The notes under the pieces are model-generated. The model did not search any database and was not told the DNA's origin. It worked only from the letters and a program-made list of their open reading frames with translations. A DNA stretch of 64,000 nucleotides from Ruegeria arenilitoris (GTDB lineage Bacteria; Pseudomonadota; Alphaproteobacteria; Rhodobacterales; Rhodobacteraceae), in the NCBI RefSeq assembly GCF_013032445.1, contig NZ_WQCA01000009.1:124001-188000 (forward strand). Reading direction: 5' to 3'. Shown one piece after another: positions 7,603-13,649 of the stretch. The first letter of the stretch is position 1; each line of letters opens with the position of its first letter. The position numbers were made by a program, and so were the translations under genes.

Positions 7603-7635
7603 TTGTGATCACAGGTTTTTGGGGTGTGATCACAA
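7603..7635 (-). promoter_or_regulatory. Tandem palindromic operator upstream of sucC
   Basis: Two near-perfect 12-bp palindromes: TTGTGATCACAG at 7603-7614 and GTGTGATCACAA at 7624-7635 (plus-strand reading). Their centres are 21 bp apart (two helical turns), and the gene-proximal one is about 113 bp before the sucC ATG. The same pair, spacing and distance occur ahead of sdhC. The site lacks the 6-bp gap of a CRP site; TTGT-GATC-ACAA is closer to GntR/FadR-type TNGT-N-ACNA operators. The cognate regulator is not in the window. Confidence 0.7.
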
Positions 7636-7768
7636 ACTGACTTTGGTGCTGTTGTTGATTCGATGTCAAAGATAGAGAGAGCCAAAAACGTATTCAAAAA
7701 AAGCCGTTTGCGACGTTTGCGCCAACATACTCGACCTAAGGTCAACTTTGCCCGGCCGGCGGGTCCAT

Positions 7769-7800
7769 AAAAAAACCGGCCCGTTGCAGGGGCCGGTTTC
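7769..7800 (-). terminator. Rho-independent terminator of mdh
   Basis: On the minus strand the stem AAACCGGCCCC / GGGCCGGTTT closes a short TGCAAC loop and runs into a TTTTTTTA tract, 20 bp after the mdh stop. This is a classical intrinsic terminator and marks sucC as the start of a new transcription unit. Confidence 0.9.
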
Positions 7801-7819
7801 AGCATTCAGGATTACGGCT

Positions 7820-8782
7820 TTAGGCCAGCGAGCTGTCGATGCCTTTGCACGCTTCGATCAGACCCTTCACGGCGTTGACCGAGTTGTCGAAACCGGCCTG
7901 CTCTTCTTCGTTCAGCTTGATGTCGACGACACGCTCGATGCCGCCAGCGCCGATCACCGTGGGCACGCCGACATACATGCCTTCAACACCCAGTTCGCCG
8001 TCACAGTATGCGGCGCAGGGCAGAACGCGTTTCTGGTCTTTCAGGTAGGCTTCCGCCATTTCGATCGCTGATGTGGCCGGAGCATAGAAAGCCGAGCCAG
8101 TTTTCAGCAGGCCAACGATCTCGGCGCCGCCGTCACGAGTGCGCTGTACGATGGCGTCCAGTTTTTCCTGTGTGGTCCAGCCCATTTCTACCAGATCGGG
8201 CAGCGGGATACCGGCAACGGTCGAATAACGCACCGACGGAACCATGGTGTCGCCGTGGCCACCCAGAACAAATGCGGTCACGTCGCGCATCGAGACGTTG
8301 AACTCTTCCGACAGGAAATGCGCAAAACGGCCCGAGTCCAGAACGCCCGCCATGCCGCAGACCTTGTTGTGCGGCAGGCCCGAGAACTCGCGCAGAGCCC
8401 AGACCATTGCGTCCAGCGGGTTGGTGATGCAGATGACGAATGCGTTGGGTGCATTGGCGGCGATGCCTTCGCCGACCGATTTCATGACTTTCAGGTTGAT
8501 GCCCAGCAGGTCATCGCGGCTCATGCCCGGCTTGCGCGGCACACCAGCAGTCACGATGCAGACGTCTGCGCCTGCGATGTCCTCGTAGGACTGCGTGCCC
8601 TTCAGCTTGGCGTCGAACCCTTCGGAAGGGCCGGATTCAGCGATGTCCAGCGCTTTGCCTTCCGGGGTACCTTCGGCGATGTCGAACAGGACGACGTCAC
8701 CAAGTTCTTTCATTGCAGCGAGGTGGGCGAGCGTGCCGCCGATCTGACCTGCGCCGATCAGCGCGATCTTGGGTCTGGCCAT
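7820..8782 (-). CDS. mdh: Malate dehydrogenase
   Basis: NAD-dependent malate dehydrogenase of the LDH-like group, interconverting malate and oxaloacetate. The protein is 320 residues from the ATG at 8782 ([16 protein letters not shown]). An in-frame upstream start at 8923 would add 47 residues without family support. The Rossmann motif GAGQIG is at 10-15, the substrate-loop segment [12 protein letters not shown] near 81-92, and catalytic H176 lies in [15 protein letters not shown] ribosome-binding site precedes the start. The gene has its own promoter region and ends in a strong terminator, so it is probably transcribed separately from sucCD although it lies in the same TCA cluster. Confidence 0.98.
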
Positions 8783-8943
8783 TTGGAAAATCTCCGGTCG
8801 GTTTTGAAATCGCGGTTGTGCTAGTCGGTAAATGGCTTTCGCGCAAGGGTTATGCGGCGCGGCATGCAACCGCATACAGTTTGCACTATGTCTGGTGATT
8901 GCGCTAAACGGCCTGTTAGACAAGCCTATTCACGGGATGCCGC

Positions 8944-11802: not shown

Positions 11803-12830
11803 TGGCAAAAACCAATCCGGGCCGCTTTTTCGAGGATTACTCCGTCGGACAGGTACTGCATCACGCAGTGCCACGCACCGTAACCGACGGCGAACGTGCT
11901 TTGTATCATGCGCTCTATCCGGCGCGGCATGCGCTTTATTCCTCGGACGAGTTCGCCCGGGCTAGTGGTCTGCCGCAAAGCCCGATTGACGATCTGGCAG
12001 CTTTCCACGTGGTGTTTGGCAAAACCGTTCCCGATATCTCTCTGAACGCGGTTGCCAATCTGGGCTATGCCGAGGGGCGCTGGCTGAAACCGGTCTATTC
12101 CGGCGACACGCTGCGGTCTGAATCCGAAGTGATCGGCGTCAAGCAGAACTCAAATGGCAAAACCGGCGTGGTTTGGGTGCGCACACGCGGTCTGAACCAA
12201 CGCGATGAGGTGGTGATCGAATATGTGCGCTGGGTGATGGTGCGCAAAGCGCATGTCGATGCCCCCGCGCCCGAGGCAGTGGTGCCAGACCTGAAAAAGG
12301 TTTTGGAGCCGGGCGATCTGGTGGTACCGGAGGGCCTCGATTTCTCAAACTATGACTTTGTGCAATCCGGTGAAGCCCATCGCTGGGGCGATTACGAGAT
12401 CGGCGAAACCATCGACCACGTCGATGGTGTAACCGTCGAAGAGGCTGAACATATGCTGGCCACCCGCCTGTGGCAGAACACGGCCAAGGTGCATTTCGAT
12501 CTGACCTTCCGCCCCGATGGCCGGTTGATCTATGGCGGCCACGTGATCTCGATGGCGCGTACCCTGTCGTTCAACGGTCTGGCCAATGCGCAGATGATCG
12601 TCGGTCTGAACGGTGGGGCCCATGCCAACCCGTGCTTCTCGGGCGATACGATCAAGGCGTGGTCCGAGGTTCTGGACAAGGCCGAAACCGGTGTTCCCGG
12701 TGTGGGTGCCGTCCGCCTGCGTCTCGTTGCCACCAAGGGCGGCGCACCCTTTGAACTGAAAGGGGAAGATGGTCGCTACAAGCCCGACGTCCTGCTGGAT
12801 CTGGATTACTGGGCGTTGATGCCGGTCTGA
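11802..12830 (+). CDS. mch: Mesaconyl-CoA hydratase (beta-methylmalyl-CoA dehydratase)
   Basis: Enzyme of the ethylmalonyl-CoA pathway that hydrates mesaconyl-C1-CoA to (2R,3S)-beta-methylmalyl-CoA, which malyl-CoA lyase then cleaves to glyoxylate and propionyl-CoA. It is a MaoC-like double hot-dog protein of 342 residues, normal for the family. N-terminal GRFFEDYSVGQVLHHAVPRTV and the second-half DYEIGETIDHVDGVTVEEAEH mark the two hot-dog units. The start overlaps the DUF1737 stop by one base. It closes the mcl2-NnrU-DUF1737-mch operon and lies upstream of sdhCDAB. Confidence 0.95.
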   Translation: MAKTNPGRFFEDYSVGQVLHHAVPRTVTDGERALYHALYPARHALYSSDEFARASGLPQSPIDDLAAFHVVFGKTVPDISLNAVANLGYAEGRWLKPVYSGDTLRSESEVIGVKQNSNGKTGVVWVRTRGLNQRDEVVIEYVRWVMVRKAHVDAPAPEAVVPDLKKVLEPGDLVVPEGLDFSNYDFVQSGEAHRWGDYEIGETIDHVDGVTVEEAEHMLATRLWQNTAKVHFDLTFRPDGRLIYGGHVISMARTLSFNGLANAQMIVGLNGGAHANPCFSGDTIKAWSEVLDKAETGVPGVGAVRLRLVATKGGAPFELKGEDGRYKPDVLLDLDYWALMPV

Positions 12831-12848
12831 CGGCAGCCCACATTGATT

Positions 12849-12886
12849 TGATCGCAGCCTGCAACAATCATGCTAGGCTGCGATCA
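12849..12886 (+). promoter_or_regulatory. Perfect dyad ending at the DUF1194 start codon
   Basis: A 12-bp perfect inverted repeat (TGATCGCAGCCT / AGGCTGCGATCA) around a 14-base spacer. The right arm ends with the A of the DUF1194 ATG at 12886, leaving no Shine-Dalgarno sequence. The sequence TAGGCT, six bases before the ATG, could be the -10 element of a leaderless transcript. Alternatively the dyad is an operator, or the mRNA end of mch. Confidence 0.5.
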
Positions 12887-13548
12887 TGGTTCTGATCCGC
12901 CCCCTTGCTGCCTGCCTGTTCCTGACGCCACCTGCATTGGCGTGTGATCTTGCGCTGGCCTTGGCAGTTGATGTGTCCGGGTCGGTCGATACCAGTGAAT
13001 ACCGGATTCAAATGGACGGTCTGGCCGCAGGACTGCGCGACCCCCTTGTGTCCGAGGCGCTAGTGCGTGGACAGGCGCAGTTGATGCTGGTGCAATGGAC
13101 CGGAGCCTCGCGCCAGAAGGTCACGATCCCCTGGACCCGGATCGACAGTTTCGACACGCTTGAACGGTTTGCAGATCAGGTGGCCGCCGACCCTCGCGTC
13201 TGGCGCAACTTCTCGACCGCGATCGGAGAGGCGCTTGAGATGACCCTGTCCAGTTTTGACGACGTGTCCGAGTGCACGCGCCACCTGATCGACATCTCCG
13301 GCGACGGGGTGTCAAACGAAGGTATTGAGCCAACCAAAGTGCACGGCGTACTTCGCACCCGCGGTGTCACGGTCAACGCCATCGCAATCGAAGAAAGCGA
13401 GCCGGATTTGACCGCTTATTTCTTTGAAAACGTCATCGTTGGCGAAGGGGCTTTTGTAGTCTCGGCTTCCGGTTTTGCGGACTATCCCGAACGGATTCGA
13501 AAAAAGCTTTTGCGCGAAGTGACGAAGCAATCCGCTGCTTTGGAGTGA
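12886..13548 (+). CDS. DUF1194 (VWA-like) secreted protein
   Basis: A 220-residue protein of the DUF1194 family, a von Willebrand factor A-like domain common in Rhodobacterales and without known function. It starts with a signal peptide (MVLIRPLAACLFLTPPALA, mature protein from CDLALALA). The MIDAS motif D-V-S-G-S is at about residues 28-32 and is completed by later acidic residues (ISGDGVSNEG), so it probably binds a divalent metal in the periplasm. The ATG at 12886 is supported by the signal peptide but has no ribosome-binding site; a perfect dyad abuts it. It sits between mch and the sdh operon control region. Confidence 0.88.
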   Translation: MVLIRPLAACLFLTPPALACDLALALAVDVSGSVDTSEYRIQMDGLAAGLRDPLVSEALVRGQAQLMLVQWTGASRQKVTIPWTRIDSFDTLERFADQVAADPRVWRNFSTAIGEALEMTLSSFDDVSECTRHLIDISGDGVSNEGIEPTKVHGVLRTRGVTVNAIAIEESEPDLTAYFFENVIVGEGAFVVSASGFADYPERIRKKLLREVTKQSAALE

Positions 13549-13559
13549 GCATCGAAGAT

Positions 13560-13649
13560 TCGTGATCACAATGATTGCGACCTTGTGGCGCTAACATTGA
13601 TTTGACTGTATAAGTTTTGTGATCACGGTAATATTTTGTGTGATCACAA
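13560..13649 (+). promoter_or_regulatory. Palindromic operators upstream of sdhC
   Basis: Three copies of the motif also seen ahead of sucC: TCGTGATCACAA (13560-13571), TTGTGATCACGG (13617-13628) and GTGTGATCACAA (13638-13649). The last two are centred 21 bp apart, and the proximal one is about 118 bp from the sdhC ATG, nearly the same geometry as at sucC. The most distal copy lies just after the DUF1194 stop, 57 bp from the second. This points to one regulator acting on both TCA operons. Confidence 0.7.

Follow-up and report, generated by a model that had tools for sequence, protein, structure and literature searches.

The window analysed here, a stretch of 64,000 bp from Ruegeria arenilitoris (contig NZ_WQCA01000009.1, positions 124,001 to 188,000), carries two gene clusters of the tricarboxylic acid (TCA) cycle, one beginning with sucC and the other with sdhC. 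Each is preceded by a pair of short palindromes that share the core GTGATCAC, and these pairs, together with the regulator predicted to bind them, are the subject of this analysis. The genes and palindromes are as follows (palindromes, read from the sequence, are unstranded).

1101–4058, minus strand: sucA, 2-oxoglutarate dehydrogenase E1 (gene name checked)
5335–6216, minus strand: sucD, succinate-CoA ligase subunit alpha (gene name checked)
6302–7495, minus strand: sucC, succinate-CoA ligase subunit beta (gene name checked)
7603–7614: predicted gene-proximal operator palindrome of sucC, TTGTGATCACAG, core GTGATCAC at 7605–7612
7624–7635: predicted distal operator palindrome of sucC, GTGTGATCACAA, core at 7626–7633, 21 bp from the proximal one
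13560–13571: fifth copy, a single operator-like site, TCGTGATCACAA, core upstream of the sdhC distal core by exactly 57 bp
13617–13628: predicted distal operator palindrome of sdhC, TTGTGATCACGG, core at 13619–13626
13638–13649: predicted gene-proximal operator palindrome of sdhC, GTGTGATCACAA, core at 13640–13647, 21 bp from the distal one
13762–14145, plus strand: sdhC (Pfam PF01127)
14157–14528, plus strand: sdhD (Pfam PF01127, E 2.1e-6)
14554–16362, plus strand: sdhA (gene name checked)
16375–17154, plus strand: sdhB (gene name checked)

The identity of Mdh in the window was likewise checked. All five palindromes were found at the positions given in the original prediction, which had been made from the sequence alone. 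It had placed the pair centres 21 bp apart, with the gene-proximal centre 113 or 118 bp from the ATG; the spacing was confirmed, and the measured distance is 113.5 bp for sucC (ATG at 7495, minus strand) and 118.5 bp for sdhC (ATG at 13762). In both pairs the imperfect half-sites, described as facing each other in the same order, point inwards, so each pair is an inverted repeat in its own right (arms 7602–7613 and 7625–7636 ahead of sucC, 13617–13626 and 13640–13649 ahead of sdhC).

The core GTGATCAC occurs eight times in the window, where 0.84 to 1.18 occurrences are expected; the three cores outside the five listed sites (21879, 31614 and 56116) stand alone, and mdh is not preceded by any of the eight. 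The 12-mer with up to three mismatches was not enriched in the window (15 found against 20.25 expected from shuffles), and since this loose form is no commoner than in shuffled sequence, the informative features are the core and the pair alone. Two copies of the exact pair GTGATCAC-N13-GTGATCAC are present in the 5.24 Mb genome, one ahead of sucC and one ahead of sdhC, against 0.0009 to 0.0018 expected, which bears out the claim that the window holds no other such pair and none before mdh. Further genome sites with at most one mismatch (L004–L012) are mostly inside open frames, apparently, judging from open-frame reading alone. The tandem pairs ahead of sucC and sdhC were correctly observed and are far above chance.

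Conservation and spacing of the pair

All 37 genomes of the same genus contain at least two pair matches at one mismatch or fewer, compared with none of 24 genomes from other families; a one-mismatch third pair that recurs in the genus looks coding, judged by its letters. In a wider family sample of 394 genomes from 393 genera, the exact pair was detected in 338, mostly in two copies, and the reversed-pattern control in none. Outside the family but within the same class, the exact pair (2 of 285 genomes) was about as frequent as the reversed control (1 of 289); one class-level match (L276) falls inside an open frame. When 59 loci were inspected, one per genome, 30 were ahead of sucC, 28 ahead of sdhC (15 of these from one genus) and one elsewhere. 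Random scatter in related genomes, or absence from the sucC and sdhC promoters of close relatives, had been named beforehand as what would tell against a shared regulator; the 58 of 59 loci ahead of these two genes and the 338 genomes with the pair came out in its favour.

The exceptional locus (L075, genome G102, 1501–1529) is the third exact 21-bp pair of its genome, and a 509-aa open frame begins at its first core; no sucC or sdh match was found beside it.

In a separate scan, 11 of 12 named genomes carried the exact pair, including members of Cereibacter, Rhodobacter, Roseovarius, Rhodovulum and Mameliella, with two exact pairs in Cereibacter johrii, a relative of Rhodobacter sphaeroides. 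No exact 21-bp pair was found in Palleronia rufa (G459). Of the 30 sucC loci, 29 have their proximal centre 110–116 bp from the start codon. The fifth copy, also noted in the original prediction, is real, and 9 of the 15 sdhC loci from the same genus, against 0 of 13 loci from other genera, have a core at exactly that position, 57 bp upstream of their distal core.

The spacing within the pair is strict. Scanning gaps of 2 to 32 bp in 61 family genomes gave 100 pairs, 88 of them with a gap of 13 (sums made by hand); among the 75 pairs listed in that scan, 66 had a gap of 13, three a gap of 12 and six other gaps. Three cores at 21-bp steps lie ahead of sucC in Pseudotabrizicola formosa and Rhodobacter calidifons (L271, 12319–12368; L272, 12610–12659). 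For the 56 family genomes that lack the exact pair, a search allowing two mismatches was too loose, with matches in 51 and matches to the reversed control also in four.

AkgR as the candidate regulator

The R. arenilitoris genome has 35 GntR matches. Thirty of these loci were examined, and one alone has a site with no more than one mismatch, that of a protein (P0001) with GntR (PF00392) and FCD (PF07729) domains. Its gene is on a different contig from the window (G000:C2:106656–107300, minus strand), with a perfect TTGTGATCACAA directly ahead of its start. The suggestion that a GntR/FadR-type protein might bind the palindromes is supported. GntR winged-helix and FCD domains, as well as GT...AC half-sites, are shared with the FadR/FCD subfamily. 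FadR-type consensus sites have 2–3 bp between GT and AC, whereas in the sites described here GT and AC are 4 bp apart and two sites stand in strict tandem. The best solved relative of P0001 is McbR (PDB 4p9f, E 5.6e-19), and ten solved relatives were found, whose annotations read transcriptional regulator or GntR family, or in one case Lmo0651 protein alone.

RSP_0981, a GntR protein of R. sphaeroides, is presumably the protein later named AkgR, a name that we take to suggest an effector such as 2-oxoglutarate. In a 2015 model, RSP_0981 is the predicted regulator of the sucCD, sdh and 2-oxoglutarate dehydrogenase genes (PMC4344238, which does not use the name AkgR). The accessible part of PMC6365646 lists GTGATCAC among the sites bound by AkgR and describes the protein as a transcriptional activator. 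In C. johrii, whose PufL is identical to the R. sphaeroides query, akgR is 0.7 kb from sdhB within an akgR-sdh-mdh-sucCDA region. This order is consistent with the R. sphaeroides tags RSP_0981, 0974-6, 0968 and 0967-6, and it is from this neighbourhood and the tag order that we infer P0001 to be the RSP_0981 orthologue. Together with the predicted RSP_0981 targets and the reported AkgR site, it leads us to read P0001 as AkgR. The window agrees with the R. sphaeroides regulon, as far as the accessible parts of the two papers describe it (PMC4344238, PMC6365646), in the GntR family of the regulator, in GTGATCAC, present in all five window sites, and in having sucCD-sucAB and sdh as predicted targets. 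Comparison with AkgR, one of two regulators named in the original prediction, favoured it on both motif and targets. On these grounds, we consider it very probable that the paired palindromes are operators through which AkgR, with its FCD ligand-binding domain, controls the sucC and sdhC operons.

P0001 matches at 1e-35 or better were found in 367 of the 394 family genomes (hand count). A match better than this threshold was missing from 21 of the 56 genomes without the exact pair, compared with 6 of the 338 with it (Fisher p 6e-15, from a 2x2 table assembled by hand). The sucC promoter itself was then the unit of comparison. Of the 35 genomes with an AkgR match but no exact pair, 24 were used (nine had no SucC match at 1e-120 and two had a 54% paralogue alone), and 18 of these nevertheless carry a tandem, which in 16 is an exact pair at 20 bp, as in G126, and in two a pair at 21 bp with one mismatch; five lack a tandem and one lies at a contig end. 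No tandem was present in the 19 sucC promoters used from the 21 genomes with neither AkgR nor exact pair (one had no SucC match and one a 51% paralogue alone), and the tandem was found in all 18 pair-bearing controls. The five AkgR-bearing exceptions (G114, G217, G255, G341 and G398) have matches of 3e-38 to 7e-60. In 7 of the 12 named genomes, E-values of 1e-39 to 7e-43 come from paralogues of 36–39% identity alone, so some of the exceptions may have no true AkgR. Among 55 clearly scored genomes, the presence of AkgR and of the sucC tandem agreed in all 55; they remain from 66 rows once one contig end, five rows of middle AkgR E-value (3e-38 to 7e-60) and the five genomes that bear the pair without AkgR are set aside, under limits fixed after the values were seen. 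The claim that one regulator serves both TCA operons is supported by this co-occurrence of the orthologue with the tandem.

Several observations weigh against this assignment. Six of the 338 pair-bearing genomes show no AkgR match, at completeness of 77, 100, 93, 77, 88 and 70% (one is rated complete), and the sucC tandem is present in all five of these that were used. Agreement drops to 55 of 65 when the doubtful rows are scored against AkgR. Several genomes without AkgR are placed among genomes that have it in the SucC tree, with low support; independent contrasts number two on well-supported (starred) branches and eight on all branches, too few for a test, and relatedness remains a partial confounder of the co-occurrence. 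The own-gene site is missing in 5 of the 12 named genomes, including C. johrii despite its two exact pairs. The motif might be shared by AkgR paralogues, which occur at 36–39% identity in 7 of the 12. The −35 and −10 elements used below are guesses from conservation.

Predicted operator architecture and alternative explanations

Candidate promoters were placed between the operators and the two genes, from conservation:

7527–7558, minus strand: candidate sucC promoter, −35-like CTTTAT at 7558–7553, −10-like TATAAC at 7532–7527
13705–13732, plus strand: candidate sdhC promoter, −35-like GTGACA at 13705–13710, −10-like TAAAAC at 13727–13732

The two sucC elements are 20 bp apart, above the usual spacing. 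CGTGAC or TGTGAC is found in 26 of the 28 sdhC loci, at 60–62 bp from the proximal centre in 25 and at 51 bp in one, and in the 11 of these loci from outside the main genus the distance is 61–62 bp in ten; the distance to the start codon in the same 26 loci ranges from 111 to 155. For sucC, 39 of 55 promoters were taken (110–116 bp from the start), of which 34 are distinct, five genomes being represented twice. In these, a T follows an A-rich stretch at 51.5 bp (32 of 34) and 52.5 bp (28 of 34) from the proximal centre. The operator-to-−35-like distances of sdhC and sucC thus differ by about one helical turn, and if these elements are true −35 elements, the proximal operators would lie near −97 (sdhC) and −87 (sucC). 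For R. sphaeroides, a data set of transcription start sites is available as GEO GSE150944 (PMC7471390).

The predicted sdhC promoter lies within the span of a 19-nt inverted repeat (13675–13734), whose arms, 95% complementary and 22 nt apart, flank the −35-like GTGACA. A shorter form, TTTTTGC...GCAAAAA, was seen by eye in several same-genus loci.

At akgR, the core GTGATCAC lies ahead of the gene in 29 of the 30 best-scoring orthologues, a set biased towards close relatives, and in 7 of the 12 named genomes. In 31 of the 35 loci that have both elements (42 examined), it lies 18 bp after the first T of TTGAC; with a 17-bp spacer, this offset would make the core overlap the predicted −10 hexamer.

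In the proposed mechanism, a pair of AkgR dimers would occupy one face of the helix at a distance of two turns, with their weaker half-sites facing each other, and would probably bind cooperatively. The predicted transcription start lies about 87 bp (sucC) or 97 bp (sdhC) downstream of the pair, a placement that would suit activation of the two TCA operons better than blocking, and the single site over the akgR −10 region suggests that AkgR may repress its own gene. It is quite possible, though we offer this tentatively, that AkgR forms a rigid two-turn lattice in which dimers 20 or 21 bp apart bind through weakened inner half-sites that need cooperation, extendable to three dimers. At a distance of about 51 or 61 bp from the −35 element, an integral number of helical turns, this lattice would activate the TCA operons, and one dimer would shut akgR. 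The grammar would be old and family-wide, and the lattice would extend to a wider GntR group.

A fixed 20/21-bp tandem, the promoter distance and the own-gene site distinguish the present system from the R. sphaeroides regulon as described. The accessible parts of PMC4344238 and PMC6365646 contain no 20/21-bp spacing, placement at about 51 or 61 bp, three-site arrays or akgR −10 site; mBio 2015 e02461-14 was outside the search. Literature searches on TTGTGATCACAA returned no paper, and those on TGTGATCACA no title on bacterial gene regulation. The regulator, the motif and the targets are known from R. sphaeroides, and the architecture and its conservation are an extension, as far as the literature searched shows. 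By the exact pair, the AkgR circuit is extended to 338 of 394 family genomes, and to more with the 20-bp form. The operator grammar is precise enough to be tested by a half-turn shift of one site. The CceR regulon of Paracoccus denitrificans does not include the succinate and 2-oxoglutarate dehydrogenases, for which 'different regulatory mechanisms' have been suggested (accessible part of PMC11323563); the AkgR tandem may bear on this gap.

Repression of sucC and sdhC by AkgR bound at the pair is rather unlikely. Many GntR proteins repress, and the site at akgR overlaps the predicted −10 region. Operators near −87 and −97 would, however, be poorly placed to block polymerase, and the description of AkgR in PMC6365646 is that of an activator.

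The GTGATCAC motif also occurs beyond the family. In the Pseudomonas simiae GntR protein PS417_07240, 32% identical to AkgR, a conserved GTGATCAC lies upstream (accessible part of PMC6365646). It differs from the present system in its proposed control of deoxyribonate oxidation genes and in having one site described. In genome G587, from outside the family, an exact pair and a third one-mismatch core (L275, 972–1020) precede a GntR frame (1028–1903) whose product is 29% identical to AkgR; the divergent gene resembles a TonB-dependent (outer-membrane) receptor by eye. These two cases suggest a wider group of AkgR-like proteins to which the motif belongs. They also lend something, as do the paralogues in 7 of the 12 named genomes, to the idea that a GntR/FCD paralogue 36–39% identical to AkgR binds the tandem, alone or together with AkgR. 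We regard this as still less likely, given that the 0- or 1-mismatch site was at the AkgR locus alone among the 30 GntR loci examined and that the sucC tandem was found in 0 of 19 AkgR-less genomes.

CceR, a LacI family protein and the other regulator proposed for comparison, is a very improbable binder of the pair. We take RSP_1663 of R. sphaeroides to be CceR. A network model places RSP_1663 on mdh and sdh (prediction in the accessible part of PMC4344238), but the predicted CceR motif, [A/G/T]GTT N6-8 AAC[A/C/T], is not in TTGTGATCACAA, and the window sites do not precede mdh, a predicted CceR target. CceR was rejected on the motif mismatch.

CRP sites have the form TGTGA-N6-TCACA, and their half-sites resemble those of the window palindromes. 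The latter abut, lacking the 6-bp gap, and a CRP/FNR site was rejected, as the original prediction had also held. Chance, or selection of the GATC at the centre of each site for another purpose such as methylation or replication, has a negligible probability and was rejected, as target genes, position and spacing are kept across hundreds of genomes and the reversed pattern occurs in 0 of 394.

Elsewhere in the window, a methylmalonyl-CoA mutase family gene (18873–20840, minus strand) ends about 1.7 kb past sdhB, and a gene for an autoinducer-binding LuxR-type regulator is followed by an autoinducer synthase gene at 24138–25580.

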